Source: Actinomycetota bacterium (GTDB lineage: Bacteria; Actinomycetota; CADDZG01; WHSQ01). From it: DNA of 64,000 bases. The stretch covers positions 543,859 to 607,858 of the forward strand of contig JAUJNI010000001.1 of the NCBI GenBank assembly GCA_030446465.1. The letters are read 5' to 3'. This document shows positions 3,186 to 39,061 of the stretch, in pieces; the stretch's first letter is position 1; every line of letters starts with the position of its first letter. The notes beneath the pieces are model-generated. The model saw only the letters and a program-made list of their open reading frames with translations, searched no databases and was not told where the DNA came from. The translations under genes were made by a program, and so were the position numbers.

Positions 3186-3476
3186 ATGTCGCTTGACTAC
3201 TTGAAGGATGCTGTAGCCACGGGAGATAGCGACGCGTTGATCCGTTACGTGCGCCTACACGTGGGTGATGGCGATGATCAGCAGGGACGTAACGAGATAG
3301 ACAAGGCATGGGTGCAGGCGCTCAAGGTGTTACTGGATGTGCCTGTGACCGACCGCCAGTTCATCGTAGATACATTGGCGAACAAAGACGAAGCGACGCT
3401 CGCGCACCTGTTCTTCTCGCTGCACTTCCACCTCGTGAAGCAGTCTGGAGATTGGATACATGACGGCACCCTCTGA
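3186..3476 (+). CDS. Small alpha-helical protein upstream of selenoprotein
   Basis: I do not recognise this 96-residue protein. It is soluble, mostly helical and acidic, with no signal peptide, membrane helix or metal motif. The start is the ATG at 3186 (MSLDYLKDAVATGD). Its last 17 bases overlap the start of the GrdB-like selenoprotein gene at 3460, so the two are almost certainly co-translated. Such tight coupling suggests a partner or chaperone for the selenoprotein. It is the first gene of a probable three-gene operon with the selenoprotein and the nitrilase. Confidence 0.6.
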   Translation: MSLDYLKDAVATGDSDALIRYVRLHVGDGDDQQGRNEIDKAWVQALKVLLDVPVTDRQFIVDTLANKDEATLAHLFFSLHFHLVKQSGDWIHDGTL

Positions 3477-4278
3477 AACTCAGCGCCAGTTGCGCCCCGG
3501 GCTGTGGCAAACGGTGAACGAGCGGTATCCCGGTGCCATGATCTCGAAGAGCGACGTGGTTCCGCTCGCACGGCTCGACAAGCCTCTCGAAGCGGCGCGC
3601 CTCACATTCATCAGCTCGGCGGGCGTGCAGCCGAAAGGGACGCTGCCGTTCGATGTGGTTCACCCCGTGGGCGACTACACGTTCCGCCGCGTCCCGTCAG
3701 ATGCCTCACCGTCCGACCTCGAGATCCATCAGCTGAAGTACCCGACCGACGGAGCGAGCCGCGACCTGAACGTGATTTTCCCGATAGAACGGCTCCAGGC
3801 GCTCGCTGCGGAGAGGGTCATCGGTAGCCTCACCCGGAACTTTTTCTCGTTCATCGGCTACAACATGGATCCGGAGCGGCTGGAGGCGACCCTCGCGGAG
3901 GACATCGCCGACGCCACAGTCGCAGACCATGCCGACATCGCACTGCTGGCGCCTGCCTGACCTATATGACACCAGTCTGTCGCGCTCGTGCAGCGCGCTG
4001 TAGAGCAACGGGGTATCGCCACCGTGTCCATAAGCGTCGCCCGTGACGTAACGGAGCACTGCAAGCCGCCCCGCGCCGTCTTCGTGCCGTTCCGGATGGG
4101 ACACCATTTCGGCGTTCCATTCCACGCCGACCTACAGCGGCGCATCATCGTCGAAGCTCTTGCGCGGATCGAGGACGTCGAGACCAGCGGCGACATCCAA
4201 GACCTTCCGATCACGTGGGCGCAGGCGCGCAGAGAGGGTCGAGTCATCGAGCAGGAGATCGGCCGGACCTCCGCATGA
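3460..4278 (+). CDS. GrdB/PrdB-like selenoprotein with UPIU motif (two in-frame TGA)
   Basis: One frame runs from the ATG at 3460 to the TGA at 4276 if two TGA codons (3958-3960 and 3967-3969) are read as selenocysteine. The product is 272 residues with Sec167 and Sec170 in LLAPA-U-P-I-U-HQSVAL. This belongs to the glycine/sarcosine/betaine or D-proline reductase 'selenoprotein B' superfamily, where Cys homologues carry CPxCHQ at this point. The part before the TGA matches the family (repeat of 'FPIERL..LAAERVIGSLTRNFFSF') and the part after it (GIATVSISVARDVTE, PPRAVFVPFRMGHHFG) is the expected C-terminal half, so the TGA is not a natural end. A hairpin at 3981-3997 fits a bacterial SECIS. 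The paired Sec residues suggest a diselenide/thiol redox centre; substrate unknown. Two nonsense mutations exactly at the two redox Cys would be the alternative. Confidence 0.8.
3981..3997 (+). promoter_or_regulatory. SECIS-like hairpin of the UPIU selenoprotein
   Basis: Perfect 6-bp stem CGCGCT/AGCGCG closing a five-base loop CGTGC. The loop begins 17 nt after the second TGA (3967-3969) and 26 nt after the first (3958-3960), within the range used by bacterial SelB, so one hairpin could serve both codons. The loop carries the G-U that SelB reads in known elements. Confidence 0.7.
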
Positions 4279-4297
4279 GTGAACGGAGCTATCGATA

Positions 4298-5236
4298 ATG
4301 AGGATCGCAGCGGCGCAAGCTCACTCGGTATGGCTAGACCCCGCCGCGACTTCGAAGAAGGTCTTGTCGTTCTTGCAGGACGCGGCCGCCGAAGGGGTAG
4401 AGCTCCTGGCTTTCCCTGAGACCTTCTTGTCCGGATACCCGTTCTGGGTCGAGAAGACCGACGGGGCTCGTTTCAACGATGACCGCCAGAAGGCCGCCTA
4501 CGCCTATTACCTTGACGCAGCGGTCGAGATGGACGGGCCGGAGATCGGTGACATCACCGAAGCTGTAGCCGATCTCGGTGTCTTCACCTATCTCGGGATC
4601 ACCGAGCGAGGTAGCGGAGCAGCGCACGGGACCGTGTTCTGCACCCTCGTCGCCATAGATCCCAGGCACGGGATCCTTTCACGCCACCGAAAGCTGGTTC
4701 CGACCTACGAAGAAAGGCTGGTGTGGGGGCATGGTGATGGCTACGGACTCCGGGTCCACGACCTCCCAGGCGGAAAGGTCGGCGGGCTGAACTGCTGGGA
4801 GAACTGGATGCCACAGGCTCGTCACGCGCTCTACGCGGGCGGCGAGGACGTACACGTGAGCGTGTGGCCGGGCGCTACACGACTAACCCGTGACATCGCC
4901 AGATTCATCGCGCTGGAGGGCCGTGTTTATTCGCTTGCTGCGTGCGGCGTGCTGGCGCTCGAGGACGTCCCTACCGACTTCCCCCTTCGGGACCTACTGG
5001 AGGACCAAGACAACAACCTCTACTACAACGGCGGTTCGGCCATCGCGGCTCCGGACGGGACCTGGGTTGTGGAGCCGGTCGAGAACGAAGAACGGCTGAT
5101 CGTCGCCGATATCGATCTGGCTCTGGTTCGACGGGAGCGACAGAGCTTCGACCCCACCGGCCACTACAGTCGGCCGGACGTATTCGACGTTCGCGTCGAC
5201 CGTCGCCGCAGAGACGCGGCTGTCTTCACCGACTGA
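4298..5236 (+). CDS. Nitrilase / carbon-nitrogen hydrolase
   Basis: This 312-residue protein is a nitrilase-superfamily enzyme that would hydrolyse a C-N bond, most likely turning a nitrile into an acid plus ammonia. The catalytic triad is visible: Glu41 in AFPETFLSGYP, Lys132 in HRKLVPT and Cys166 in GGLNCWENWMP. The sequence YP after FLSG and the CWEN motif favour the true nitrilase/cyanide-hydratase branch over amidase branches, and the length is usual for it. It starts 20 bp after the selenoprotein gene on the same strand and is probably in the same operon. That pairing suggests a common small nitrogen-containing substrate or a detoxification role, but the sequence does not identify the substrate. 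Confidence 0.88.
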   Translation: MRIAAAQAHSVWLDPAATSKKVLSFLQDAAAEGVELLAFPETFLSGYPFWVEKTDGARFNDDRQKAAYAYYLDAAVEMDGPEIGDITEAVADLGVFTYLGITERGSGAAHGTVFCTLVAIDPRHGILSRHRKLVPTYEERLVWGHGDGYGLRVHDLPGGKVGGLNCWENWMPQARHALYAGGEDVHVSVWPGATRLTRDIARFIALEGRVYSLAACGVLALEDVPTDFPLRDLLEDQDNNLYYNGGSAIAAPDGTWVVEPVENEERLIVADIDLALVRRERQSFDPTGHYSRPDVFDVRVDRRRRDAAVFTD

Positions 5237-5343
5237 TAGCCGCCGTCTCTTATCGCGCTCATGACGCCCAAGCGCGCTATGGCAACTTTTGAGGCCAAAT
5301 GTCTGAGATTGGCACCACAACCGTGGGAACCGTAGCCAGAAAA

Positions 5344-5384
5344 GGGTCGCCGGGGAAACGAACCCTGAACCTACGGATTAAGAG
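5344..5384 (-). repeat. tRNA-Lys 3'-half fragment (att-like site, internal)
   Basis: About 41 bp match the 3' half of tRNA-Lys(CTT) at 41879, again ending at the anticodon loop, with a few mismatches in the T arm. Same orientation as the functional tRNA. It divides the island into a 3.7-kb left unit and a 36.5-kb right unit and is read as an internal attachment site. Confidence 0.75.
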
Positions 5385-5502
5385 CTGGGATGTTGTCAAC
5401 GCTTGTCAAGTTCTTGCGAGACCGTGCATGCTCCCAGGTCGGCGCCATGGTTGTAGTTCGCAAGACTTGCCCTCGTTTTTCATCGCTTTGCGTCGCTCGC
5501 GT

Positions 5503-5608
5503 GTCAAAATCGTGTCGCCGTCAGCAAGGCGTCGGCCGTCCCCGGGGCCGCCGGTTGAAGGAGGCGACTTCGGGGGCCGAGACCGTTGTGGGTCACGGGT
5601 CTCTTTGG
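5503..5608 (+). repeat. 106-bp segment, inverted copy at 39320-39427
   Basis: This stretch is the reverse complement of 39320-39427 with a handful of mismatches and indels, mostly at the outer end. It lies directly against the left edge of the 1.87-kb direct repeat in both places, but in opposite orientation. No gene is seen in it; it contains GGCGACTTCGG and GTGGGTCACGGG blocks. Its origin is unknown. Confidence 0.8.
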
Positions 5609-5774
5609 TGTCTTTCTTCTGCAGGATGGGTACGGCAGGATTCGCGATGGCGGTGAGCTCGCTGTCGGTCGTGCTGGACGCCAATGAGATGCGTAAATTT
5701 CCGCCCCGCGCGCTTAGTCGATGGAGGAAGACCCCTTCCCGCTACTTTTTAGTGTCCGTTACAGTGAAGTGGAT

Positions 5775-6038
5775 ATGAAGACGCTGCTGGTTCTAGGGCT
5801 TGTGTTGCTTCTGCTCGTGGTGGGGCTTCCCATCGCCATGGGCATGGGCGACATGGGACCGTGCCCTTCCTGTTCAGCGCCGGATGCCTCCGTCGCTGTG
5901 GCGATGTGCCTCGCGATCCTCGCGATCGGCGGGCTCTTCATGACGCCGGCGTTCTCGGGCCGAATCTCGCAGTGCAGCAAGCGCACCCCTCGTTTCCTCG
6001 CCGTCTCTGGCCTCGATAGACCTCCGCAGCACGCGTAG
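5775..6038 (+). CDS. Small membrane protein with CPSC motif (repeat copy 1)
   Basis: Starts at the ATG at 5775 (MKTLLVLGLVLLLLVVG). The protein has two hydrophobic segments, residues 2-22 and about 43-62, around a loop with GPCPSCSAP. The Cys pair could bind a soft metal or form a disulfide outside the membrane, but I do not recognise the family. In this copy an extra C in a run changes the last 20 or so residues compared with copy 2 (39590-39856), so at least one C-terminus is wrong. It leads a small operon with the 69-residue membrane protein and the BNR protein. In other actinobacteria such sets often lie near copper-handling genes; this is only a weak hint. Confidence 0.55.
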   Translation: MKTLLVLGLVLLLLVVGLPIAMGMGDMGPCPSCSAPDASVAVAMCLAILAIGGLFMTPAFSGRISQCSKRTPRFLAVSGLDRPPQHA

Positions 6039-6101
6039 CTGATCTTTGCGCGCCATGCGCGCGCTCTGTCCTCACTGCGTTCTCGATAGGAGGTCTTTCA
6101 A

Positions 6102-6311
6102 TTGGAATGGTTATTGGTCTATGTGCCGGCGATCGCCTGTGCGGCGATGATGCTGGTGATCTGTCTCCCCATGATGCGCAAGATGTCGGGTGGTCACGCA
6201 CAAGAAGGAGGGGCATCGAGCGACGAGGTCGCCGAGCTCCGCTACGAGGTGGCGCGCCTTCGCGCTGAGCGGGCACTGGCGTCCCAGCCCGACGAGGTGA
6301 CCCATGGCTAA
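6102..6311 (+). CDS. 69-residue membrane-anchored protein (repeat copy 1)
   Basis: Starts with TTG at 6102, set well after an AGGAGG box, and overlaps the ATG of the BNR-protein gene by 8 bases, so the two are translationally coupled. The N-terminal 25 residues form one membrane helix (LLVYVPAIACAAMMLVICLP) followed by a short charged helix (ELRYEVARLRAERAL) that may form a coiled coil. The layout resembles small SHOCT-like or cytochrome-oxidase-accessory proteins, but I cannot assign a function. It is identical in copy 2 at 39916-40125. Confidence 0.55.
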   Translation: MEWLLVYVPAIACAAMMLVICLPMMRKMSGGHAQEGGASSDEVAELRYEVARLRAERALASQPDEVTHG

Positions 6312-7259
6312 GACCTCAACCCGCACCCGGCCGACGCCGTCCAGCAAGAAGGCCGGATCGCACCAGAAGAGCAGGCGACCTACGCCCAAGCCGTGGTACC
6401 AGCGGGTCGGTTCGACGACGTGGATAGCCGTCGTCTTGGTTGCCGGGATCGCTCTCTTCGCCCTGCTCAGCAGAGGAAACGAGACACCGGAAGGGCGGTC
6501 CGCGGTGCCGGTGGTGGGAGCGGACCTCCACTCTCTCGTCGTCGACCCCAAGAATCCCTCGCGTCTTTTCATCGGGAGTCATCAGGGCGTCTCGGCGTCG
6601 ACCGACGGTGGTGAGACGTGGCAGGTGCTCGAGAGCCTCAACGGCGCGGATGCGATGGGTTGGGCTTTTACCGAGGAAGCGATCCTCGTTGGCGGCCACC
6701 CTGGTCTCTACGTCTCAACGGACGGCGGCACCAGCTTCGAGCAGCGTAAGAAAGGCCTTCCCAACACCGAGACGTCCACGCGTTGGGGGCCGGCGACGGA
6801 GTGATCTACGCCGCATCACCTGGTGCAGGGTTCATAGCATCGACCGACGGGGGCGAGACATGGACAGTTCGCAACGACCGGGTCGGACAAGGGTTCATGG
6901 GCAAGATCCTGGTCGACCCCGAAGACCCGGACCACGTCATAGCGCCGGACATGCGGGCCGGTGCGGCGGAAAGCACCGACGGCGGTAAGAGCTGGGGCGC
7001 GCTTGGCGGCGTCCAGGGGGCGATGTGGGTCTCGTGGGACCCGTCCGACACCGGCGACATCATCGTGACGGCGACGGGGTCTGCCGTTCGTTCCACCGAC
7101 GGCGGCAAGACGTGGGACCCAATCGAGATCCCCGATGGCGCCTCGATCGTTGAGTTCTCCCCGGACGACCCGAAGACGCTCTACGCCGCGGTCCACGAAG
7201 ACCCGGAGGCGCGGGTCTGGGTCAGCACCAATGACGGCCAAACGTGGGAGGAGCTGTGA
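6304..7259 (+). pseudogene. BNR-repeat (sortilin/exo-glycosidase-like) protein, frameshifted (copy 1)
   Basis: The gene encodes a basic N-terminus, one membrane helix (about residues 39-58) and a beta-propeller made of Asp-box repeats: SASTDGGETW, VSTDGGTSF, ASTDGGETW, STDGGKSW, RSTDGGKTW and VSTNDGQTW. This is the 'F510_1955-like glycosylhydrolase' or sortilin-like type, probably an anchored extracellular propeller. In this copy two extra bases near 6772 shift the frame after KKGLPNT; the rest reads on from about 6783. Copy 2 is intact here but broken elsewhere, so combining the copies gives one uninterrupted protein of about 318 residues. The function is unknown; catalytic residues of true sialidases are not seen. 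Confidence 0.7.
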
Positions 7260-7484
7260 GTTTCAATGCAGACCGGCGAGGCAGTTCCAGGGGGCGGTGG
7301 CAGACGCTTGCAGGATGGATCCTTGCGGCGATCGGTGTCGCCGTCTTTCTCGGCGGCAACCTCGGCGCACGTATCGGCTTCACCTTTCTCCCGTTCGACC
7401 CCCATCACGCCTACGCGCAACTCGGGGTGCGGCCGTCGCGATCTTCGGCGTCATGTGGGCTTACCCGGTCAGGCTCGACCGAGG
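7256..7484 (+). pseudogene. Two-helix membrane protein, frameshifted (copy 1)
   Basis: The GTG at 7256 overlaps the stop of the BNR gene (GTGA). The frame gives a basic start, then LAGWILAAIGVAVFLGGNLGA as a membrane helix and FTFLPFDPHHAYAQLG. The second helix (AAVAIFGVMWAYPVRLDR) is in another frame, so a shift at the run of G near 7430 is needed in both repeat copies. The end is lost where the repeat stops and a sialidase-like fragment begins. No function can be given. Confidence 0.45.
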
Positions 7485-10188: not shown

Positions 10189-10344
10189 CTACTACTTCAC
10201 CCTCTCCTGCGAAAGACCCAATATCGGCAGATTGGCCTGGAACCATCGGTAAGAGTCTGAGCACCGATTGATTCGCCTTCGTCCCGTTATTCGGTGGCGA
10301 AGCTCGCCAGGGATTGTCTTATCCGTCAGCGAAGGGAGATGCCG

Positions 10345-10836: not shown

Positions 10837-10852
10837 TAGCTCGTCGGCATAG

Positions 10853-13847: not shown

Positions 13848-14360
13848 CGCCGACGGGCAGTACTTCGTTCGGCGCATCCGTTGGTCGAGGCGTCGTGGCC
13901 GGTATTGCAGGGACCGCCGTGATGACCGCGTTCCAGAAGCTGATCGAGATGCCGATCACCGGCCGCGACCGCCGTGATGACCGCGTTCCAGAAGCTGATC
14001 GAGATGCCGATCACCGGCCGCGGCGAGAGCTTCGCCCCTGCGGATCTTGTCGAGCGAGTCCTGCCGATCGAGGCGAAGGATGAGCGCCAACGGCGGCAGT
14101 TGAACTGGGTCACGCACTTCGCTCTCGGAGCGATGTGGGGGAGTGCTTTCGCCATCGCAGATCGCGCCGGTCTTCGTGGTCAGAAGGCGGTCGCCACAGT
14201 TTTCGCGGTTGTCTACACCGGCGACGTCCTGCTGAACGCGGCGCTGGGACTATACGAGCCGACGAAGTGGTCCGCCGGTGAGCTTGCCGTCGATGTGGTC
14301 GACAAGCTCGTTCAGGCTGAGGCGACGGGGCTGATCTTTGAGCGCATGAAGGACATCTAG
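13844..14360 (+). pseudogene. Membrane protein broken by a 55-bp tandem duplication
   Basis: The ATG at 13844 overlaps the PKS stop and begins a protein with GRGVVAGIAGTAVMTAFQKL as first membrane helix. A 55-bp perfect duplication (13912-14021) then shifts the frame; removing one copy restores a single protein of about 153 residues with helices at FALGAMWGSAFAIADRAG and TVFAVVYTGDVLLNAALG. The second copy supplies a GTG-ATG at 13971-13974 from which the C-terminal 128 residues could still be made. The closest relative in the window is the protein at 30300-30752, which shares GRGxxAGxxGTAVMT and the layout. Function unknown. Confidence 0.75.
13912..14021 (+). repeat. 55-bp perfect tandem duplication
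   Basis: Two identical, head-to-tail 55-bp units, 13912-13966 and 13967-14021. 55 is not a multiple of three, so the duplication disrupts the reading frame of the gene that contains it. Perfect identity points to a very recent event or an assembly artefact. Confidence 0.95.
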
Positions 14361-14920
14361 CCGACTTCGTCCCGGCCGAGTTCGAAGAAGATCTCGTCGA
14401 CGAGCTCATAGACGCGGCGCGTCGCCATAGGAACGGCCGCAGCGACATCAGGGCTAAGACCTTGATGGAAGTCCTCACACGTAGCTGCTTGACATCCCAC
14501 GACCAGGACGTGCTCGGGTAGGACGTCTGCGGCTTGTGCGATGCGCAGGATCCGTGATGGCTCCGCGAGATGAAGGTCGGCGTACTGGCCCTGCCATTCC
14601 TCCATCGTCGGTTCCGTGACCTTAGGAATCTGCGGGATCAGGACGAAGACAGTTCCGGCCGGCGCGTTGCGCTCGATTGCGTCGACGACGATCAACCCGC
14701 AGTAGCCCTCCATCAGCTGCTGGACGATCCCGAGACCCCCGATGCCGGTTTCGATGAGGTCGACTCGGTCCGGCAGAGAGTCTTGCAGCTGGGCCGCGAC
14801 CGCGACACCGAATCCGTCGTCGCCGCGCAGCGGGTTTCCGACACACGCGACGAGGACGCGCCAGCGCCGATCAGGCCCCGTGGGAACAACCACAGCTGCC
14901 GCCGCCTGGCCCGCAGCCAC
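14357..14920 (-). CDS. [NiFe]-hydrogenase maturation endopeptidase (HyaD/HybD type)
   Basis: This 187-residue protein is the protease that clips the C-terminal tail of the hydrogenase large subunit after nickel insertion. It shows the family start VLVACVGNPLRGDDGFG, where the second Asp of DD takes the place of the first nickel ligand (Glu16 in E. coli HybD), then LIVVDAIERNAPAGTVF with the second ligand Asp, and a His in YADLHLAEPS that is the probable third. It is the last gene of the hydrogenase operon and overlaps the NifU-like gene. Its stop overlaps the end of the convergent membrane-protein gene by four bases. The large subunit's 20-residue tail after the last active-site motif is the expected substrate. 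Confidence 0.88.
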   Translation of the reverse strand: MAAGQAAAAVVVPTGPDRRWRVLVACVGNPLRGDDGFGVAVAAQLQDSLPDRVDLIETGIGGLGIVQQLMEGYCGLIVVDAIERNAPAGTVFVLIPQIPKVTEPTMEEWQGQYADLHLAEPSRILRIAQAADVLPEHVLVVGCQAATCEDFHQGLSPDVAAAVPMATRRVYELVDEIFFELGRDEVG

Positions 14921-15503
14921 CGTGGGATGGTTCTCCTCCGCTGCGGAAGCTCAGGGTGGGCGCCGGTATGACCACGGGTTGCGGTTTGGATGTTTGCGCT
15001 CCCTCATGTTCGGGCGATGACGACACGTTCATCCGAACGAACTCCGGCAACTCTCCGCGCAGCGCTTCCTCCACGAGGTCGCCCAGTCCCGCGGTCGAGC
15101 CGGAGCAACTCTCACACGCACCCAGCAGGCGGATGGTGATCACACCGCCCTCGGCCGTAACCACCTCGAGCCGGCCGCCGTGGCTCTCGACGTACGGACG
15201 GATCCCCTCGACCGCCGCCTCCGCACGTTCTCTCTCGTCCTCGATCTCTTGCGACCCGTACAGGTCGAACAGCAGCGCCATGTGCGCATCGGCTAGCGCC
15301 TCGTCCAGAAGCGAACGTTGCTCGAGGAAAGCCGCGACCCGCTGCAGGCCACCGCGATGAAGCACGTCGACGGCGCGCAACACCGCGATCACGCCGTCCT
15401 GCACGTTTTCGTCGGGGTGGTCCACGAACATCTGGATCAGATCGTCGAGTTGACGCAACGCTGCAGCGACCTCGGGAGGCAGCTCTGCCGGCGCCGACGT
15501 CAT
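14871..15503 (-). CDS. NifU C-terminal domain protein of the hydrogenase operon
   Basis: A 210-residue protein with an acidic helical N-terminal part (about 1-95) and a NifU-type Fe-S scaffold domain (about 95-165), recognised by VESHGGRLEVVTAEGGVITI and the CxxC in LLGACESCSGSTAGL. Such proteins carry or assemble Fe-S clusters and are often found beside actinobacterial hydrogenase genes, where they would serve the small subunit. The tail is Gly/Cys/His-rich (HGGCGPGGGSCGCSHG), an unusual extra metal-binding candidate. The ATG overlaps the stop of the upstream membrane-protein gene (ATGA), and its own end overlaps the protease gene. Confidence 0.82.
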   Translation of the reverse strand: MTSAPAELPPEVAAALRQLDDLIQMFVDHPDENVQDGVIAVLRAVDVLHRGGLQRVAAFLEQRSLLDEALADAHMALLFDLYGSQEIEDERERAEAAVEGIRPYVESHGGRLEVVTAEGGVITIRLLGACESCSGSTAGLGDLVEEALRGELPEFVRMNVSSSPEHEGAQTSKPQPVVIPAPTLSFRSGGEPSHGGCGPGGGSCGCSHGA

Positions 15504-16066
15504 GGCGACTCACCACTGCCGTGGGACCACCAGCCCCAGCCAACGGCGTCGAGTGGTTGCAGCCCGCGCGCCATCCCAGCTACTACTGCCGCTGTGAGCG
15601 AATAGATCTGAGTCCCGACGAGGAGCTGTAGCGGCCCAGACAGTCCGAGCGCGCCACCGAACGGCCCGGGCTCGGGAACGCCCGGGGGAGAGGTCCCGTT
15701 CAAGAGATCGAGGACGGGCAGCAGGATCCCGCCCGAGACGAACAGAACGAGGCCCCAGAGAACGCCCTTAGTGGCGGCGCCGCGGAAGGTGAATCGATCG
15801 CCGGGCGTGATCGGCCACAACAGGGCGAGTGGGAGCGGCAGGATGAATACGCCGATGACTACGAACATGGCATAGCCGACGCCAAAGATCGTGTCGTGAT
15901 CGCCCGATCCGATCGCTCCGAGCAGCCGCGGCAGGTCCAGGACGGTCAGTCCTACCGCTGCCGCCAACTGCAACGATGCCGTCAGGAGCACGGTACCGGT
16001 GAGTCCGCCGAGGAGCGTGAGCGGAAAAAGCGCCGGATGGGGTTTGTACAGCAGCGGAGAGTCCAC
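15500..16066 (-). CDS. Hydrogenase-operon multi-pass membrane protein
   Basis: A 188-residue integral membrane protein with about four to five helices (FPLTLLGGLTGTVLLTASLQ; GVGYAMFVVIGVFILPLPLALLWP; GVLWGLVLFVSGGILLPVLDLL; LQLLVGTQIYSLTAAVVAGMARG). The long open frame upstream is noise; the GTG at 16066 (VDSPLLYKPHPALF) follows an AGAAGG box and begins two bases after the stop of the protease-like gene. I do not recognise a family and see no heme-binding His pair like that of HyaC, so it is not the usual cytochrome b partner. Its position inside the operon suggests a link to membrane attachment or electron transfer. Confidence 0.65.
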   Translation of the reverse strand: MDSPLLYKPHPALFPLTLLGGLTGTVLLTASLQLAAAVGLTVLDLPRLLGAIGSGDHDTIFGVGYAMFVVIGVFILPLPLALLWPITPGDRFTFRGAATKGVLWGLVLFVSGGILLPVLDLLNGTSPPGVPEPGPFGGALGLSGPLQLLVGTQIYSLTAAVVAGMARGLQPLDAVGWGWWSHGSGESP

Positions 16067-16068
16067 GG

Positions 16069-16590
16069 CTACCTTCTCACCGAGGCCGGTGGTGCGACGC
16101 GCGCTATGGCCGATACCTCTTGGCGCACCAGGTCGACGACCTGCGGGACCAATGCTTGCACGTCCCGGGTGAGTCCATCGCCGACCGTGCCCCGATGCGG
16201 CTCGAGCTCGATCGCGATGACATCGTCGGGAAGGGCGCCGAAGTGGCGGCCGATCACGACGAGGTGGTCGAGATCGATCACGCCCGCTCCCGCCTCGTAC
16301 ATCCGCGCTTGGATCTCTTCGCTGTCCGCCAGGGTCGTTTCGCACGGGGACCGGTATAGCCGCCCAGGCTCGCGACCCCGCTCCGTGACGCCGATCAGGA
16401 TGACTCGCTCGTAGGGTGGATCCGCATCGGCGAGGTCCAGCGCCACGTGCAGCGCGCCGTAGCCGAGATCCTCGACGTCAACGCCCGGTGGCCACTCCAG
16501 CAGCGCGAGCGCATCGCTCACGACCAACCCGAACGAGCCGTCGCCGAACCACCGATAGCCGACCCCGCCGATGAGGACGCGCGAGGTCAT
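16069..16590 (-). CDS. Degenerate HyaD-like protein of the hydrogenase operon
   Basis: A 173-residue paralogue of the hydrogenase endopeptidase at 14357. The start GVGYRWFGDGSFGLVVSDAL aligns with the protease motif GxGNxLxxD(D/E)GxG, but the Asn is Tyr and the nickel-ligand position (Glu16 in HybD) is Gly. The second ligand region reads VILIGVTERGREPG, where the protease has VVDAI, so that Asp is lost too. The fold is probably kept, but nickel recognition and cleavage are unlikely. It may be an assembly factor or have lost function. It lies 43 bases downstream of the large-subunit gene and two bases before the next start. Confidence 0.75.
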   Translation of the reverse strand: MTSRVLIGGVGYRWFGDGSFGLVVSDALALLEWPPGVDVEDLGYGALHVALDLADADPPYERVILIGVTERGREPGRLYRSPCETTLADSEEIQARMYEAGAGVIDLDHLVVIGRHFGALPDDVIAIELEPHRGTVGDGLTRDVQALVPQVVDLVRQEVSAIARVAPPASVRR

Positions 16591-16633: not shown

Positions 16634-18508
16634 TCATGTAGCCCCGCATGCGCAGGTCGTAGCGTCGCGGATGATCATGTTGTCGCCGTTCGCGATGTGC
16701 ACGGTGCACGGCATGCACGGGTCGAACGACCGGATAGCGCGGAAGATGTCGATCCCGGTGAACTCCTTGTCCGAGTCGAACTCTTCGAGGATCGGCGTGT
16801 TCACAGCCGCTTCCTCATAGGGGCCAGGCTGTCCGAACGGATCGACAGGTGAAGCGTTGAAGGTAGACGGGGTCACGACCTGATAGTTGGTGAGGACTCC
16901 CTTGTCCATCGTGAGGTGGTGGGTGAGGAAACCGCGCCCCGCGCCCCAGAAACCCACCCCGACGCGCTCGTCACGCGGCACCCTGAACTCGGTCATCGTC
17001 GCAACCTTGTTCTCACCGTCGCCCATGAGCTCGAAGGCGATCTGCACGTTCTCATACGCGACCATGAGCGAGTAGACGACGTGATAGGCCCGAGCGAGGT
17101 TGCGTTCGAACGCGTTCCATGTCTCCGGGATCTGCCATTCCAGCTCCATCGCCGGCAGAGCTGGGGTCTGTGGTGTGTCGATCTTGACGCTGGTGCCGGT
17201 TGCCTGCAGGAAGCGCGTGTGCGGCATCTTCGCAGCGGCCGCGGTGGCCCACAAGCGAGCGTAGGCGCCTGCCTCCATGACCTGACGATCCCACCGCGGT
17301 GAGGTGCTCCAGGTGTAGCGATCCTTCCAACTGCGCTTGTCCGGGCGCGGCTTCGTCTCCTTGTTCCAGGGGTGGTTCGGAGAGAGCGGGTTGCCCGCGG
17401 GATCTGTCGGGTACGGCGTTCCTTCGTTCTCCCAGCCCTCGTAATAGGCGTGCTCGACGAACTCCTCCATCCCCATGTTGATGTGGTGCAGGTTCGTCGT
17501 CACGAGCTCGCCGTCCATGATCACGCCGGGAGTCGCCCACCGCTGATCACCCCACTCCGCGGCCCCCGCATAGGTGCCGTCATAGGCGAACGGGTCATCC
17601 CACATGCCGGTGTCAATCATGTTCTTCGGTCGCGTACCCACCTGCTTGTAAAGCGGGTCCGCGTCGTAGAAGAACTGAGTGATGTCGTCCCAGATGAACA
17701 CGCCTCTTTTTGCGTAATCGAGCGTCCGGATGATGCGTATCTCGGTCTCGTTGAGCACCTGCATCGACACCGTGGTCGACAGGCCGCCGGGAACCACGGT
17801 CTGCGGGTGTGGATACTTCCCGAAGAGGATCGAGTAAGCCTCCTTCGGTGCCCGGGTCATGTGGAGGCCTTCCAGGTACAGCTTGCCCGTCAGCGGGTTG
17901 AACGCCGTCATGAGCTCCGCCATCGTCGCGAAGCCGTGGATGTTGCCGTGGCGCGTCTCGGTCTTCTTCGCCCGTTCCCATAGAGACGGGTTCGTACGCT
18001 CGATGACGACCTGCGAGTAATCAGGCCCCGCCAGTAGATAGAGGTGGACGGGGTTGTCGATCTGGAAGTCGAGACCGAGCTGGATGTTGCGTAGGGCGAG
18101 CCCCATCGGCGGGACCCCGATCCCGAACGCCATCTCCATCGCCAGTGACGAGGCGACCGAATGAACTCCTCCGCACACTCCGCACACGCGACTGGAGATG
18201 AACATCGCATCGCGGGGATCGCGTCCCTTCAGGATCACCTCGTAGCCGCGGAACAGCGTGCCGATGGAGTGTGCCTCCAGCACCTTGCGCTGCTGCAGGT
18301 CGACGACCGTGTGGAAGGCCATGGCACCGGCAACCCTGGTGACCGGGTCGAGGTTGATGTCCTTGACGTGGCCGTTGCTCGCCAGGAGCTGTTCGATCTG
18401 CGACCGATCGACGTCCCGTGTCTGGTAGGCGTAGGGGATGCCGACGCCTTCCTTTAGTCGCGCGTTTCCTTGCGCGTCGAACTCAACGGGCAGGTTCTGA
18501 AAGCACAT
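16634..18508 (-). CDS. [NiFe]-hydrogenase large subunit
   Basis: Catalytic subunit (624 residues) that splits H2 at a Ni-Fe(CN)2CO site. The N-terminal motif RVCGVCGGVH holds Cys109 and Cys112; the C-terminal motif SFDPCMPCTVH holds Cys598 and Cys601, followed after His604 by a 20-residue tail that the HyaD-type protease would remove. The ligands are normal Cys, not selenocysteine. Length, the missing Tat signal on its partner and the NifU neighbour fit the aerobic, high-affinity uptake hydrogenases of soil actinobacteria (group 1 or 2), which oxidise trace H2 and feed the respiratory chain. I cannot fix the exact subgroup by eye. It lies six bases after the small-subunit gene. Confidence 0.93.
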   Translation of the reverse strand: MCFQNLPVEFDAQGNARLKEGVGIPYAYQTRDVDRSQIEQLLASNGHVKDINLDPVTRVAGAMAFHTVVDLQQRKVLEAHSIGTLFRGYEVILKGRDPRDAMFISSRVCGVCGGVHSVASSLAMEMAFGIGVPPMGLALRNIQLGLDFQIDNPVHLYLLAGPDYSQVVIERTNPSLWERAKKTETRHGNIHGFATMAELMTAFNPLTGKLYLEGLHMTRAPKEAYSILFGKYPHPQTVVPGGLSTTVSMQVLNETEIRIIRTLDYAKRGVFIWDDITQFFYDADPLYKQVGTRPKNMIDTGMWDDPFAYDGTYAGAAEWGDQRWATPGVIMDGELVTTNLHHINMGMEEFVEHAYYEGWENEGTPYPTDPAGNPLSPNHPWNKETKPRPDKRSWKDRYTWSTSPRWDRQVMEAGAYARLWATAAAAKMPHTRFLQATGTSVKIDTPQTPALPAMELEWQIPETWNAFERNLARAYHVVYSLMVAYENVQIAFELMGDGENKVATMTEFRVPRDERVGVGFWGAGRGFLTHHLTMDKGVLTNYQVVTPSTFNASPVDPFGQPGPYEEAAVNTPILEEFDSDKEFTGIDIFRAIRSFDPCMPCTVHIANGDNMIIRDATTCACGAT

Positions 18509-18514
18509 CGGTTT

Positions 18515-19972
18515 TCACTCCTGATCTCCCTGAAGGGGGGTCTCGAACCCGTCGGCTTGAGGCGACAGCCCCGGCCGTTGATAGGTGCCGCGCTTGCGAG
18601 CCTCGTCTGCTCTGCGATCCGGCAGCAGCTGCGCGTACTCCTTGCCGTAGGCCGCCTCGGGCGGCACCATGTAGCCGCTCGCGTACTTCTCTTCGTCTTT
18701 CTCGTGGCGCCCCGGAAGCTCCGAGCGGAAGTATTGGATCCGGGTGTAGAAGTACTCGAAAGTGCGGTGGGCGATGGTGACGTTGTCGTATTGAGGGGCC
18801 CAGCCGCTGGGGGTCGTGCTCCTCCAACGCGGCTCTCGGTTGCGCTCCAGCTGAGTGGTTCGACGGAGCGGCTTGGTCAGGGCGCCGTGGATGCGTGACA
18901 GGGCCGTCGCCGGTGTCGTTTGCGGCGGCCGCTTGTAGAACGGCGTGAACTTGTCGGGGAATCCCGGCGACATGCAGCCGATGCACGCACCGCCCGCGAC
19001 CATGCAACCCCCCTTGCCGTTGATGAATCCGCGTTCGGTGATGTGGCAGTTGACGACGGGTCCCCAGCACCCGATCTCCGCCAGGCACTCCTTCCCGCCG
19101 AACTCACGGGCGAAATTGCCCTCCTCGTACCAAGCGCCGCGCGGACAGTGCAGGTGGACGGTCTCGCCGAACTGCCACGCGGGACGCCCCAGCTCGTCGA
19201 ACTCAGGCACGGGGCCTTGGCCGTTCATGTACTTGAGCAGCATCGTCACGGCTTCGGTGAAGTCGTCCCCGATCGGGGGGCAACCAGGAACGTTTACGAC
19301 CGGCAGCCCCAAGGAGCTCCTGTAGTCCTTGCCCAGGAAGTCCATCATGCTCATGGCGCCGGTGGGGTTCCCCAGCGATGCCGGGATCCCGCCCCAGGTG
19401 GCGCATGTGCCGATAGCGATCGTTACGGCTGCTCCCGGCGCAAGCCGACGGACCCACTCCGGTGTTGAGCGACGCTGGCGCTGGTCGGCGGGTGCCCACG
19501 TCGGCAGCGATCCCTTCGCCGCCCATGGCTCCGCGCCCACGGTCAGGTGCTCGTCGGTGATCGAACCTTCGTAGACGAGGATGTACGGCGCGTCGAGCGC
19601 CCCGGCGTCCGCCTGCTCCAGCAGGAGCGTGAAGTGGTCGCCCGACTCCATCTGGAACTGGTAATGATGCAGGACCACGACGGGGACGCCCGGCAGCGCT
19701 CCCGTCAGCAGCTCCTCGATCGAGGGGTCCGTCGCGCCGAGCGTAGAAACCGTGCACCCGTCGCAACTCATCCCCGGCAGCCAGAACAGGTAGACCTTCT
19801 TCAATGGCCCAAGCGTGTCCCTGCGGCCCCCGCTCTCTAGGAGACGCTGCTGAAGCTCGGAATTGTGCGCACCGGCAACGTTTCCCACTTGATCAGGCAG
19901 TAGTCGGCTGACCTCCCCCTCGAGGGGGAGGTCCACCCGCGCCTTCATCGGCACCGAGATCATGTTCTCCAT
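18515..19972 (-). CDS. [NiFe]-hydrogenase small (Fe-S) subunit with C-terminal extension
   Basis: Electron-transfer subunit, 485 residues, with three Fe-S clusters. Proximal-cluster ligands appear as Cys70/Cys73 in PGMSCDGCTVST, then IGTCATWGGIP and VNVPGCPPIGD. Medial and distal ligands lie in HLHCPRGAWYEEGNFA, KECLAEIGCWGP and GGCMVAGGACIGCMSPGFPD. There is no twin-arginine signal, so the enzyme stays on the cytoplasmic side. Actinobacterial group 1h enzymes, as I recall, have CxxD at the proximal site; here it is CxxC, which argues for another subgroup. After the distal cluster there are about 140 extra residues, charged and Pro-rich, longer than usual for the family (about 330-370 total), possibly for contact with the small membrane proteins encoded just upstream. 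Confidence 0.9.
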   Translation of the reverse strand: MENMISVPMKARVDLPLEGEVSRLLPDQVGNVAGAHNSELQQRLLESGGRRDTLGPLKKVYLFWLPGMSCDGCTVSTLGATDPSIEELLTGALPGVPVVVLHHYQFQMESGDHFTLLLEQADAGALDAPYILVYEGSITDEHLTVGAEPWAAKGSLPTWAPADQRQRRSTPEWVRRLAPGAAVTIAIGTCATWGGIPASLGNPTGAMSMMDFLGKDYRSSLGLPVVNVPGCPPIGDDFTEAVTMLLKYMNGQGPVPEFDELGRPAWQFGETVHLHCPRGAWYEEGNFAREFGGKECLAEIGCWGPVVNCHITERGFINGKGGCMVAGGACIGCMSPGFPDKFTPFYKRPPQTTPATALSRIHGALTKPLRRTTQLERNREPRWRSTTPSGWAPQYDNVTIAHRTFEYFYTRIQYFRSELPGRHEKDEEKYASGYMVPPEAAYGKEYAQLLPDRRADEARKRGTYQRPGLSPQADGFETPLQGDQE

Positions 19973-23381: not shown

Positions 23382-23939
23382 ATGACTGCCGAACATGAAC
23401 CTTTGACAGGCGAGGCTGGTTTCTCACCAGCGCGCAAGGCGATCGTGATCTTCGCGGTTGTGGTGCTGGGCGCGACCGTCGCCATCTGGCTCGTTCGTGG
23501 CGACGCGTCTCCCGATGACGCTCATCGAAGGCATCTCGCCGTGGCACTGCAGGATTTCGACGGCGGTGACTTCACGTTGGAGAGCTATGAGGGAGCTCCC
23601 CTGGTGGTGAATTTCTGGGCGTCCTGGTGTCCGAGTTGCGCTGCAGAGATGCCCGCGTTCGAACAGGTTCACCAGCGCTTCGACGAGACGGTGGAGTTTC
23701 TCGGCGTGAACCACAGCGATCGCAGATCCTCCGCGGAGGAACTCGCAGACTCGACGGGCGTGACCTACCGGCTTGCGGAGGATCCTGACGGGGAGCTTTT
23801 CGCTGCGTTCGGCGGCACCGGGATGCCGACCACCGCGTTCATAGACGCCGATGGAGGTGTCGCCGAGGTCGTCGTAGGTCAAATCAGCGCCGAACAGCTG
23901 ACGTCTCTCATCCAGGAGCATCTGGAGGTGTCGAGCTGA
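23382..23939 (+). CDS. TlpA/ResA-like membrane-anchored thioredoxin
   Basis: A 185-residue thiol-disulfide protein with an N-terminal anchor (AIVIFAVVVLGATVAIWLV, about residues 22-40) and a thioredoxin fold outside the membrane. The active site is NFWASWCPSCAAEMPAF (CPSC) and the cis-Pro loop is GGTGMPTTAFIDADG. Such proteins reduce disulfides in exported proteins, classically apocytochrome c, with electrons from CcdA, encoded divergently next door. A TTG at 23370 is too close to the GAGAGG ribosome site, so the ATG at 23382 is preferred. The stop overlaps the next start (TGATG). Confidence 0.87.
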   Translation: MTAEHEPLTGEAGFSPARKAIVIFAVVVLGATVAIWLVRGDASPDDAHRRHLAVALQDFDGGDFTLESYEGAPLVVNFWASWCPSCAAEMPAFEQVHQRFDETVEFLGVNHSDRRSSAEELADSTGVTYRLAEDPDGELFAAFGGTGMPTTAFIDADGGVAEVVVGQISAEQLTSLIQEHLEVSS

Positions 23940-25129
23940 TGGACCAAGGCGTGTGGCGTCGCAGCACGCGATCCGCGGTTGTTCCGGTCATTGCCGCGCT
24001 GTTGTTGCTCGTGGGTGCCGGATCCGTGGCCTATCTGCTTACGAGGACTCAACCTTCTAGCGTCGGAGGCGCGGAACTTCAGAGCGATCCTGGCCCCGAG
24101 GCACCGGTGGCCGCTGATGCCGGTTTGGATCCAGACGACATCGTTGAAGTGATCCCGCCGGATGGGATCCCCGCCATAGATGACCCTTCCTTCGTAGCGG
24201 TTGACGAGGTCGATTGGTTGAGCGACCGAGAGCCCGTGATCGCGCTCGAGTTGGGCGATGAAGCCCGGGCGTATCCACTTCAGATCATGACCTGGCACGA
24301 AATCGTCAACGACACCGTGAGCGGAACCCCGGTCGCGGTGACGTTCTGTCCGCTGTGCAACACCGCTATCGCCTTCGAACGCCCGCGCATCGATGGCGAA
24401 ATCACGACCTTCGGGACCTCCGGCAAATTGATCAACTCGAACCTGCTCATGTACGACCGAGCGACCGAGTCGTTGTGGCCGCAGGTCACAGGGGTTGCTC
24501 TCACGGGACCCGAGAAGGGCCGGGAGCTCACTCGGATCCCGGTGCAGATCGTTTCGTGGGCGGACTTTGCCGTGGCACACCCCGACGGCGATGTCCTGAG
24601 TCGCGATACGGGCCACGATCGGCGATATGGCGAGAACCCCTACCCGGGTTACGACGACGTCGACAGCGCTCCGTTCCTCTACAAGGGCGAGGTCGACGGG
24701 CGTCTTGCCGCGGTCGAACGCGTCCTGGGCATCGAGGCCGGAGGTGATGCCGTTGCCTTCCCCTACTTCCGGCTTCGCCAGGAGGCGCAGGAGGGCCTGA
24801 CGGTGATCGAAGCAGACGTTGGTGGGGAGCCGGTGGTCGTCTTCTGGAAACAGGGAACCGTGTCCGCTCTCGATGACTCGGAGATCGCGGCATCCAAAGA
24901 CGTAGGGGCGGCATCGGCGTTCTCACCCGTTCTCAACGGCGAGCCCGAGACCTTCGCAGTGTCCGCCGGCAAGATCATCGACACCCGTACGGGCAGCGTG
25001 TGGGACATCTTCGGCAGAGCGATCGAGGGGCGTCGAGAAGGCCAGCGATTGAAAGCCATCCCCGCGACAGACTCGTTCTGGTTCGACTGGGCGGCCTTCC
25101 ACCCCGACACCGAGGTGTGGGAGCCATGA
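23939..25129 (+). CDS. DUF3179 protein, membrane-anchored
   Basis: 396 residues: one N-terminal membrane helix (about 13-33), a linker, then a DUF3179 domain over most of the length. Recognisable segments are WLSDREPVIALELGDEARAY, MTWHEIVNDTVSGTPVAVTF and the CPLCNTA Cys pair, with FGTSGKLINSNLLMYDRATE and LWPQVTGVALTGP. The biochemical role of DUF3179 is unknown; the domain looks extracytoplasmic. It is coupled to the TlpA-like gene by TGATG and to the ECF sigma gene by ATGA, so the four genes form one operon. The Cys pair could be a target of the TlpA-like reductase. Confidence 0.85.
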   Translation: MDQGVWRRSTRSAVVPVIAALLLLVGAGSVAYLLTRTQPSSVGGAELQSDPGPEAPVAADAGLDPDDIVEVIPPDGIPAIDDPSFVAVDEVDWLSDREPVIALELGDEARAYPLQIMTWHEIVNDTVSGTPVAVTFCPLCNTAIAFERPRIDGEITTFGTSGKLINSNLLMYDRATESLWPQVTGVALTGPEKGRELTRIPVQIVSWADFAVAHPDGDVLSRDTGHDRRYGENPYPGYDDVDSAPFLYKGEVDGRLAAVERVLGIEAGGDAVAFPYFRLRQEAQEGLTVIEADVGGEPVVVFWKQGTVSALDDSEIAASKDVGAASAFSPVLNGEPETFAVSAGKIIDTRTGSVWDIFGRAIEGRREGQRLKAIPATDSFWFDWAAFHPDTEVWEP

Positions 25130-26317: not shown

Positions 26318-26327
26318 ACGAAGCTGG

Positions 26328-30250: not shown

Positions 30251-30299
30251 CAAAGAGGACAGAGGCGGCGCGATGGCGCCGGAGTAGGAAGGAGAACCG

Positions 30300-32307: not shown

Positions 32308-32311
32308 AGCG

Positions 32312-34482: not shown

Positions 34483-34539
34483 GATGCCCGTGAGAGCGAT
34501 CTACCCAAATCCCTCGGTAGGTCCGGAGAGAAGCCTCGA

Positions 34540-35916: not shown

Positions 35917-36248
35917 AACTGCGCCAGCATGGGCTGTGAGGTTGCGATCTGTGGTGGAAACCGTGAAGGCGCTGACCGGGACGGCTTATGCTCACCTTAT
36001 AGATACCTCCTGTGTCGGTGGATGATGGTTCTCGGCAAACTCGCCATCGCTGCTCAGGGGCTTTTTCTTTGGACTTCCGCGTGAAGTTGCCGTTATCGGT
36101 GGTTCTCAGTAGCCAGGTCCCGTCCGGTTGAAGAGGCAAGTGTTCTCTCCCTAACGTTTGTCTGCCTCAGCATCGACGTGAGAGGTAAACAAGGGGAACG
36201 GCGCCTCCTACGAAACAGACGGCGTGGCAGTGTCCGACTGGTGCGGCT
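35917..36248. other. No gene recognised between IS remnant and repeat
   Basis: No coding region with family features or ribosome site is seen. It may hold the outer end of the IS remnant and the upstream region of the next damaged gene. Confidence 0.35.
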
Positions 36249-36392
36249 GCGCGATACGACTGAGGAGGATCAATGAGTCAGGCCGGAACTAGCGGCAGCA
36301 CTCCCGACACGTACCGCCCGCGCGATACGAGCATGAGGAGGATCAATGATGACGCAAGGCGAACTAGCGGCGGCACGCCCGACACCTACCGC
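36249..36392 (+). repeat. 71-bp imperfect tandem repeat, each unit with ribosome site and ATG
   Basis: Two units, 36249-36319 and about 36320-36392. Both contain GCGCGATACGA, a GAGGAGGATCAATG start region, a GAACTAGCGGC block, then CCCGACAC and TACCGC. They duplicate a translation start, so two in-frame or overlapping starts exist for the damaged gene that follows. Confidence 0.8.
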
Positions 36393-36626
36393 TTGCGTGG
36401 ACAGGCAGGTGCCACCTACGACCCGCGCATACGGTGCTGGGATCGTGGGGTGCCAATTTCCATCCTGATCTGCAGCCAGTTGACGATGAGGTGGTTCTTC
36501 TGCCTCATGGGGATCGACGTCTTCGAGACGGACCTGCCGCAGATCGTGCCCCTGCAGTCGGACTCCGAGGCGGCATCGCATCCTGAGGAAGCGATCGCCC
36601 GGGCTAAGGCACTTCATGAGGGCTGA
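36273..36626 (+). pseudogene. Isochorismatase-like cysteine hydrolase remnant
   Basis: The open frame from the ATG at 36273 carries the duplicated start, and only its middle resembles anything known. In another frame 36450-36520 reads ANFHPDLQPVDDEVVLLPHG, and the main frame then gives GIDVFETDLPQIV, together a typical piece of an isochorismatase-family hydrolase between the catalytic Asp and Cys. The rest of the family, including the nucleophile Cys, is missing. It is a truncated and shifted remnant lying before the second GrdB-like gene. Confidence 0.4.
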
Positions 36627-36779
36627 CGGGAATAGGAATAAGGCAGCGCTGCCTGCTTTCGCGTTGCGTCGTTCACTCAATCAACGCTCGGTGCGAGTCC
36701 CGATCCAATTCCGCGGTGACGGTGGTTGCGGCCATGCGAATCCTGTTGCCAGCTGGCGTACCACTTGAGCCAGGACGAT

Positions 36780-37585
36780 GTGAAGATCGCCGGCACCCGC
36801 CCGGGGTTCGATGATGACTCCAGAGGGTTCGCCGCGATCGAGCGTGATCACGTCCGCACGTTCGTGCCCGACTTCGAATGGCTCCGCTTCCCAGATCCCT
36901 CGCAGCGCAACCCGCTGACTGTGCCACTTGGCGAAGCACGGATCGCGCTGATCGGCACTGCCGGCGCACATCTTCCCGGTGAGCCCGGCATGTCTCCGCG
37001 TGGCGAGGTCAGGTTCATCCCTTCGACCAGCACCAAGATCGATTTCACGCACCCGGGCTTCGACACGGCGCGGGCGGCGCTCGATCCCGAGGTCGTTTTC
37101 CCGCTAGAGACCGTGCGCAGGCTGGTCGAGGCGGGTTTCGTGGGCGAACTAGCGCCAACAGCCATTTCAACCATGGGCTTCATCCCACGCGGAGCCCGCG
37201 TCCTCGGGCACCTCGTGCCCGAGGTCGTCAGGCGGGTGCGAGACGAGGAGGTTCATCTCGCGCTGCTGGTTCCCGCGTGACCGGTTTGTCAGCAGTCAGT
37301 CGGGCTGCTACAGCGCGGGATCTATGAAGCCGGCATCGGGACGGTGTCCGTAACTCAGGTTCCTGGATCACTGAGTTCGTGAAGCCTTCGTTGGCGTGCT
37401 TCGTCGCACACCCGTTCGGGCTGACGCTTGGCGCTTTGAACGATTCTGACACGCACACCGCGGTGGCGCGCGCCGTCCTCAATGAAGCAGAACACGATCA
37501 CCCCCCGGGAAAGATCGTCCCCCTGTCGCGTTTCCAGTGGCCGGACGATCTTCGTCGCCGTCAACTGCGCAAGGATGCGCATTAG
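36780..37585 (+). CDS. GrdB/PrdB-like selenoprotein with UPVC motif, one frameshift
   Basis: Second member of the selenoprotein-B-like family. From the GTG at 36780 the frame reaches a TGA at 37278-37280, predicted Sec167, in LALLVPA-U-PVCQQSVGLL; the same residue number as the first Sec of the protein at 3460, which supports this start. Reading continues GIYEAGIGTVSVTQV, then one base shift near 37352 leads to ITEFVKPSLACFVAHPFGLT and on to the stop at 37585. The second redox position is Cys170, so the motif is UxxC. A hairpin at 37291-37309 fits a SECIS. The shift may be a sequencing error or make this copy inactive. Confidence 0.65.
37291..37309 (+). promoter_or_regulatory. SECIS-like hairpin of the UPVC selenoprotein
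   Basis: Seven-bp stem AGCAGTC/GGCTGCT, with one T-G wobble, closing a five-base loop AGTCG. The loop begins 17 nt after the TGA at 37278-37280, the same spacing as in the UPIU gene. Loop positions two and three are G-T as in the other three hairpins. Confidence 0.6.
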
Positions 37586-37750
37586 CGGTGGCTACCGCTG
37601 GTCTGGATCAGGCGGAGGAGCGGCAGGCGTTGCAAGGAGAGAAGTATTGCCCGCTGATCCCGCACGATCGTTCTGAACCACACATTTCAAGCGCGTGACG
37701 TCCGGCTACGGGTACGGCTAGGGCAAGTGCGTGGACGAGAGGAGGTCGGT

Positions 37751-38512
37751 ATGGCGGAGCCTGAACGTGAACCGAGGAACAGGAAAGCAGATGTGAAGGT
37801 GGTGATCGATCAACAAGAGGTGCGGCGGCTGCTGGACCAGGAGAACGCGCAACTGGTGGAGGTGCTACCTCACCAGGAATACGAGCAGGAGCACCTTCCA
37901 GGCGCGATCAACATGCCGTTGAAGGAGCTGACGCCGGATGCGGTAGCGACCCTCGATCGGGCTCGGCCCGTCATCGTCTACTGCCACGACTTCCTGTGAG
38001 ACATGAGCCCCCGAGCCGCGTGCCGGCTCGAGAGCCTTGGCTTCATCGCCGTTTATGACTATGCCGCCGGGAAGACCGACTGGACCGGGAGTGGACTTCC
38101 CACCGGTGGAACCCAAGCGGACATGCCCCGGCCGGGTCGCCTAGCGCGCGAGACGCCTACGTGTCGGCTGACCGACACAGTTGCGACCGCTCGGGAGCGC
38201 GCCGGCGACGGCGGAGCCTGCATCGTTACCAGCGACAACGGCATCGTCTTAGGGCGTCTGCGCGGCAAGACGTTGGAGCACGATGGTGCCTTGAGTGTCG
38301 CCGACGTGATGGAGGCCGGACCGACGACCGTCCGATACGACGAATTCCTCCCGGATTTGGTGGATCGGATGCAGAAGGCTGGCGTCGGCTCGATAGTGGT
38401 CACCAAACCCTCCGGTGAGCTCGTCGGCCTGATGCAGCGGAGCGATGCCGAAGAGTTGCTGGCTGAAGTACATCGGGAGCATCACGACCATGACGACCAT
38501 GACGCCGGTTAG
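37751..38512 (+). CDS. Rhodanese-CBS selenoprotein (in-frame TGA)
   Basis: The ATG at 37751 follows GAGGAGGTCGGT. One frame runs to 38512 if the TGA at 37997-37999 is read as Sec83. Residues 15-110 form a rhodanese domain (QLVEVLPHQEYEQEHLPGAI, INMPLKEL, PVIVYCHDFL-U-DMSPRAA, CRLESLGF). Cys homologues have Cys at the U position, five residues after Cys78. Residues 120-235 are a CBS pair (CRLTDTVATARERAGDGGAC, ALSVADVMEAGPTTVRYDEF, VGSIVVTKPSGELVGLMQRS) and the tail is His/Asp-rich (HREHHDHDDHD), a likely metal site. Rhodaneses move sulfur or selenium between thiols. The text after the TGA is clearly coding. A hairpin at 38012-38030 fits a SECIS. Confidence 0.8.
38012..38030 (+). promoter_or_regulatory. 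SECIS-like hairpin of the rhodanese selenoprotein
   Basis: Perfect 7-bp stem CGAGCCG/CGGCTCG with a five-base loop CGTGC, identical to the loop of the UPIU gene hairpin. The loop begins 19 nt after the TGA at 37997-37999. Confidence 0.75.
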
Positions 38513-38518
38513 GGCTTC

Positions 38519-39061
38519 TCAGGCTTCTGCAGCGGAGCGGGCTGCGGCGATGATGGCACCGACCGGCGCTCGATCCTCCGGCCCTTGCTCGCGATGAGAG
38601 AGAATCACCTGCCCGTTGCGACGGACGACGAAATCTCCGCCGAGCTGCCTCCGGTCCTGTCGTCTGCGCAGCTTCGGGAACTCGCCTTGCAGAGCGAAGC
38701 GGGCGTATGGTCGCAACACATCGGGGTGCAAGTAGGTTCGGAGGAGCCCGGCGCGGCCGAGTCCGAGCGTGCGATACCCAGCGCGAGACGCATCTCTCAT
38801 GAAGATGAAAGGGCTCGAGAGTCGGCGCTTCATGTCGTCGAGCGTCTGTAGCTCGTCGAACCCGATCACAAGTACGCCGATGTCTCGAGATTCAAGCTCT
38901 TCGGCGTAGCTGGCCATCTTCACGAGATGGCGTTCACAGAGAAGTCAGCCGACGTATCTCAAGAAGGTGAGGATCGCCAGCTGTTGTCGCATCTGACCGA
39001 TCCGGATTGTGCCGCCGCCGACCTTGTCGAACTGAAGCGCCGTGATGTCGTCGCAAGGCAT
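38519..39061 (-). CDS. Peroxiredoxin-like (AhpC/TSA) selenoprotein with UxxC
   Basis: The frame reads from ATG 39061 (or GTG 39088) through a TGA at 38947-38945, predicted Sec39, to 38519; 180 residues. Around the TGA it reads LAILTFLRYVG-U-LLCERHLVK, where peroxiredoxin-like homologues have FLRxxGCxxCREH, so Sec sits at the peroxidatic Cys with Cys42 as partner. The rest is the thioredoxin-fold body: YAEELESRDIGVLVIGFDEL, PFIFMRDASRAGYRTLGLGR and FVVRRNGQVILSHREQGPED. It would reduce peroxides or act as thiol oxidoreductase. A hairpin fitting a SECIS lies at 38931-38913. It is convergent with the rhodanese selenoprotein, six bases apart. Confidence 0.8.
38913..38931 (-). promoter_or_regulatory. 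SECIS-like hairpin of the peroxiredoxin-like selenoprotein
   Basis: On the minus strand, perfect 7-bp stem GCCATCT/AGATGGC with a five-base loop CGTGA; the loop begins 20 nt after the TGA at 38947-38945. Same loop type (CGTGN) as two of the other three. Confidence 0.75.

Follow-up and report, generated by a model that had tools for sequence, protein, structure and literature searches.

Four predicted selenoprotein genes in an Actinomycetota genome, one encoding a PrdB-like protein with two selenocysteines

The window analysed here, a stretch of 64,000 nucleotides (positions 543859-607858 of contig 4) from the six-contig, 2.76-Mb genome of an Actinomycetota bacterium, contains four genes that continue in frame past TGA codons, and we consider it about 95% probable, judging from their sequences, that these are bacterial selenoprotein genes in which UGA is read as selenocysteine (Sec). 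This is a known device, in mostly known protein families. The first of them (gene 1, plus strand, 3460..4278, with its own TGA stop at 4276-4278) would encode a PrdB-like protein of 272 residues with two Sec in a UPIU motif, Sec167 (UGA 1, 3958..3960) and Sec170 (UGA 2, 3967..3969), and is predicted to be a rarely seen double-Sec form, with Sec also replacing the Cys that normally closes the UxxC motif. The remaining three are a further PrdB-like gene with the motif UPVC (gene 2, plus strand, 36726..37585, TGA at 37278-37280), a rhodanese-CBS gene with UDMS, a UxxS motif (gene 3, plus strand, 37751..38512, TGA at 37997-37999), and a SelL-related/AhpC-TSA_2 gene with ULLC (gene 4, minus strand, 38519..39061, TGA at 38947-38945, stop TGA at 38521-38519). 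Gene callers unaware of Sec truncate all four proteins at UGA, leaving the selenoproteome largely invisible to automatic annotation.

A sequence-only reading of this DNA had already proposed Sec at redox positions in these genes, and all five TGA codons were indeed found where it placed them, with family sequence on both sides; gene 4, which it began at 39061, actually runs on the minus strand, and gene 2, which it began at 36780, is not intact as assembled. Homologues continue past these TGAs rather than ending there. Among relatives drawn from many genera, 33 of 36 PrdB-like loci have Sec at the column of the first gene 1 TGA, the other three having Cys; 18 of 19 rhodanese-CBS loci have Sec at the gene 3 column, the remaining one having Ser; and all seven Prx-like loci have Sec at the gene 4 column. 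When gene 1 is aligned with its UxxC relatives, UGA 1 falls on their Sec or Cys and UGA 2 on their Cys. Purifying selection past the TGA is similar to that before it (ratio of nonsynonymous to synonymous substitution rates about 0.08-0.25 in the double-Sec clade), which, together with the recurrence of TGA at the same column in relatives, agrees with the earlier argument that chance mutation is not at work. The rhodanese-CBS relative with Ser at the Sec column (L077:1504-2172, genome G001) shares its genome with an ordinary Sec paralogue (L054).

The same reading had named the absence of selB and tRNA-Sec as what would speak against it; both were found, as part of a complete Sec pathway. The tRNA-Sec scores 83 bits with the anticodon TCA (UCA in the RNA), selB 328.7 bits against a cut-off of 242 in the profile search of the genome, and selA, which adjoins fdhD, 519.5 bits against 267.9, while selD (388 bits, above its cut-off) carries an in-frame TGA of its own within the Sec motif GGGUACKLG. 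With this machinery, TGA aligned to Cys or Sec in all families and the hairpins described below, Sec is well supported as the explanation of the TGAs. The idea that the selenoprotein set is confined to an accessory island is not supported, since Sec-coding genes for SelD, FdhA and another Prx-like protein are located elsewhere in the genome and G+C content is flat along the window; this genome-wide view comes from searches plus one 20-kb stretch and is short of a full census. The FdhA gene outside the window has the classical Sec motif UHSSTVPGL. An FdhA selenoprotein gene (L106, G000:C6:628444-631243) gave matches in several frames, that is, it is frameshifted as assembled.

Gene 1 and gene 2 both belong to the GRDB superfamily (PF07355), exceeding its gathering cut-off of 22 with 25.3 and 25.9 bits, and match the D-proline reductase PrdB model TIGR04483 with 131 and 74 bits, respectively, both below its equivalog cut-off of 300. 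Gene 2 has the UxxC active site, and its nearest relative (L020) is 57% identical across 148 columns. For gene 1, a collection of 84,980 genomes was scanned with a DNA pattern for UxxU in a PrdB setting, and ten places matched; the pattern is narrow, and further clade members may exist. Six of the ten are relatives of gene 1, 74-89% identical where intact, from the Actinomycetota genome YX3bin4, two Acidobacteria metagenome-assembled genomes (MAGs), two Thermomicrobiales MAGs and one Rubrobacter MAG, one of the two Acidobacteria copies being frameshifted. A seventh match (L091:1500-2108) comes from Verrucomicrobia and encodes a more remote protein with the motif UPMU and 42% identity, and the other three (L096, L099 and L100) were rejected as unrelated chance matches. 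A genome of the same family as the window genome, G011, also carries the double-Sec gene, 88% identical; G011 and YX3bin4 may be one and the same genome. Both positions are TGA, never TGC or TGT, in all six aligned clade members. In the tree the gene 1 clade has support of 100/100, and the Verrucomicrobia protein groups with UxxC proteins, so that the double-Sec state requires at least two changes; it apparently arose independently in Verrucomicrobia, the second origin resting on one sequence. The gene 1 clade is a separate one, found across several phyla, whose protein travels between phyla with a small partner gene. A scan of a viral contig collection with the gene 1 protein and the UxxU DNA pattern returned no relatives.

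That partner, orfX (plus strand, 3186..3476), shares its last 17 nt with the beginning of gene 1 and encodes a 96-residue protein for which neither Pfam nor NCBIfam gave a match. It lies directly upstream of the double-Sec gene in seven other loci, where it is 68-89% identical, and among 396 genomes of the phylum it occurs in just two, the same two in which the double-Sec gene is present; orfX and gene 1 are probably made from one operon. Its structure model is of low confidence (predicted local distance difference test, pLDDT, 57.6). So strict a link opens a way to look for the partner and the substrate.

Each of the four genes has a hairpin resembling a bacterial selenocysteine insertion sequence (bSECIS) shortly after the UGA. 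In gene 1 it is CGCGCU-CGUGC-AGCGCG (3981..3997, plus strand), its loop lying 17 nt past UGA 2 and 26 nt past UGA 1. The hairpin of gene 2 (37291..37309, plus strand; loop 17 nt past the UGA) stands at the same place in UxxC relatives, that of gene 3 (38012..38030, plus strand; loop at 19 nt) shows one compensatory change from C-G to U-A, and that of gene 4 lies at 38913..38931 on the minus strand with its loop at 20 nt. The five-base loops of genes 1 to 4 (CGUGC, AGUCG, CGUGC and CGUGA) all read N-G-U-N-N. Published bSECIS rules ask for a loop of 3-9 nt that has a G among its first two bases, a stem of 4-16 bp, a distance of 16-37 nt from the UGA and an energy of at most -7.5 kcal/mol (PMC13188914 Fig. 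2A), and all four genes satisfy them, gene 1 for both of its UGAs, as against 7.9% of 9,192 in-frame control codons in the window. The gene 1 hairpin is nearly invariant across phyla, third codon positions included. Within each family we also scored, along the gene, how often synonymous codons are identical. For the double-Sec, rhodanese and Prx-like sets the strongest excess of such conservation begins 4-5 codons past the TGA (p of 0.017, 0/5000 and 0.0024, respectively, by permutation). Base-pair counts fit the helices, with one change on both sides of the stem in each of two sets, which is modest evidence. On this reading SelB and tRNA-Sec decode UGA under the direction of a short hairpin whose apical loop reads N-G-U and lies 17-20 nt past the codon.

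In UxxC relatives the hairpin loop starts 17-18 nt after the UGA, and in the gene 1 clade 17-18 nt after UGA 2, which is 26-27 nt after UGA 1, so the hairpin stands three codons further downstream than in the UxxC paralogues, with both UGAs within the 16-37 nt range. The Verrucomicrobia UPMU sequence has its predicted hairpin in register with UGA 1 instead. One hairpin, moved three codons downstream, may thus serve both UGAs of gene 1, and the clade offers a natural test of one bacterial SECIS serving two UGAs, the shift being exactly the distance between them. A rival reading has Sec only at UGA 1, with UGA 2 translated as Cys or Trp or passed by near-cognate read-through; the two UGAs, nine nt apart, share one hairpin, and one of them may be decoded poorly. 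We find this improbable, seeing that none of the six aligned clade members has TGC or TGT at either position and that the hairpin is in register with UGA 2.

Two broader explanations dispense with Sec altogether. Were UGA reassigned to sense (Trp or Gly) in this genome, the genes would be ordinary ones, and their frames do stay open when UGA is read through; yet TGA is the commonest stop (16 TGA, 7 TAG and 3 TAA in 26 clear genes), genes 1 and 4 themselves terminate with it, and read-through is confined to redox columns that have a SECIS-like hairpin after them. Reassignment is excluded by TGA being common as an ordinary stop, including TGA stops between adjacent genes, and we regard it as scarcely credible. 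Hardly more credit can be given to the view that the TGAs arose by nonsense mutation or sequencing error or mark pseudogenes. The assembly does show errors of the indel type, in 1.9-kb repeats and G/C runs, and gene 2 is frameshifted, but independent genomes from several phyla have these TGAs too, and the sequence past them is under purifying selection; for genes 1, 3 and 4 this explanation was rejected. Gene 2 leaves its frame about 80 nt past the TGA, near 37361, and family sequence resumes in another frame up to a TAG at 37583. An assembly error is plausible here because two 1.9-kb repeats in the window differ by indels in G/C runs; the local sequence at the frameshift site is without a long run. 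These near-identical direct repeats, each holding a BNR/Asp-box gene, lie at 5612-7484 and 39431-41293, 33.8 kb apart; most differences between the copies are indels of 1-2 nt in G/C runs, a sign of long-read indel errors or recent decay.

Several observations weigh against the selenoprotein reading and the function suggested below for gene 1. Gene 2, being frameshifted as assembled, may be dead or mis-assembled. The hairpin test has a background of about 8% per codon, a few relatives (L033 and L083) have no hairpin under strict rules, and covariation is thin because coding constraint limits it. A fold search found no PDB structure similar to the PrdB-like model at E <= 0.001. Lastly, the nitrilases found near gene 1 relatives are only 38-44% identical and none stands beside the gene in G011, leaving the functional link weak.

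As for function, the families to which the proteins belong imply that the selenols act in redox reactions or as nucleophiles. The AlphaFold2 model of gene 1, with Cys in place of Sec, is confident (pLDDT 91.7) and sets the UPIU motif between a strand (160-164) and a helix (168-183), where the two selenols at the helix N-terminus could form a diselenide; searching the PDB by sequence brought up no relative of the PrdB-like protein. Directly downstream lies a nitrilase-superfamily (CN_hydrolase) gene (plus strand, 4298..5236; PF00795, a distant match to Nit6803), and such a gene adjoins the orfX/double-Sec pair in five loci including the window, the other four being those of 38-44% identity. An ornithine-cyclodeaminase-like gene stands beside the pair in G011/YX3bin4, and an isochorismatase-like hydrolase does so in two loci. 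Our tentative suggestion, drawn from the C-N hydrolases or the ornithine-cyclodeaminase-like enzyme next to gene 1 and from analogy with D-proline and glycine reductases, is that it might reductively cleave a nitrogen-containing small molecule. That the protein is instead a general thiol/peroxide redox protein and no C-N reductase is a serious contender, at somewhat less than even odds: a pair of selenols spaced by three residues where a helix begins resembles a dithiol redox motif, and UxxU is present in other redox selenoproteins (PMC2398784, PMC13188914), against which stand the homology to PrdB and GrdB, enzymes of reductive C-N cleavage, and the neighbouring hydrolases of nitrogen compounds or ornithine-cyclodeaminase-like gene. 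Taken as a whole, a distinct cross-phylum UPIU PrdB-like family linked to orfX, with one relocated SECIS for two UGAs nine nt apart, a diselenide site and a new selenium-dependent reductase activity on a nitrogenous compound, is a possible but doubtful picture.

Comparison with known systems places gene 1 close to, and apart from, D-proline reductase. It is homologous to the PrdB of Terrisporobacter glycolicus (TIGR04483; WP_081011614.1) over about 215 columns with Sec at the same position, and that gene also has a SECIS-like hairpin after its Sec, but PrdB has UxxC where gene 1 has UPIU with two Sec. The D-proline reductase operon places prdA and a small gene of the CBO2463 type before prdB, whereas gene 1 is preceded by orfX, which showed no resemblance to the CBO2463-type protein; a PrdA search of the genome gave no match, a weak result as the control genomes gave none either. 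The PrdB-family selenoproteins reported from marine metagenomic data (PMC2398784, PMC1088965), abundant in microbial communities, are PF07355/PrdB-like as gene 1 is, with UxxC and one Sec instead of UxxU. In a 2026 inventory D-proline reductase/TIGR04483 appears with a single Sec, as UxxC, and no UxxU form is given; the deep-Sep paper mentions neither PrdB nor UxxU. The PrdB-like family is common in metagenomes.

Genes 3 and 4 are most likely thiol/selenol redox proteins, to judge by family membership. The rhodanese domain of gene 3 (PF00581, 52 bits) with its UDMS motif fits rhodanese-like selenoprotein form 1 (UxxS; PMC13188914 Table 1), from which gene 3 differs by an additional C-terminal CBS-type domain (PF00571), the comparison being with the table entry. 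Relatives' loci revealed no conserved neighbours of rhodanese-CBS genes. Gene 4 matches the SelL-related redox protein model NF040769 over its full length (105.3 bits, below the subfamily cut-off of 120) and AhpC-TSA_2 (PF13911) with 38.2 bits, above the gathering cut-off of 27; its Sec is at the first redox position, in UxxC rather than the UxxU of the SelL-related protein. The SelL diselenide family (Shchedrina 2007, a study cited in PMC2398784) reportedly has two Sec with two residues between them; it is Prx-like, whereas gene 1 is PrdB-like with the same Sec spacing and a diselenide that is only inferred. A broken second fragment of the gene 4 family is present elsewhere in the genome of the window (L087/L089, G000:C1:77360-77798).

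Elsewhere in the window, a DUF3179-like gene, identified by eye at 23939-25129, is of the Cys form (FCPLC), DUF3179 being a selenoprotein family (PMC13188914). The large and small subunits of a [NiFe] hydrogenase (16634-19972) are likewise Cys forms with no Sec, and maturation-type genes lie nearby (14357-16590).

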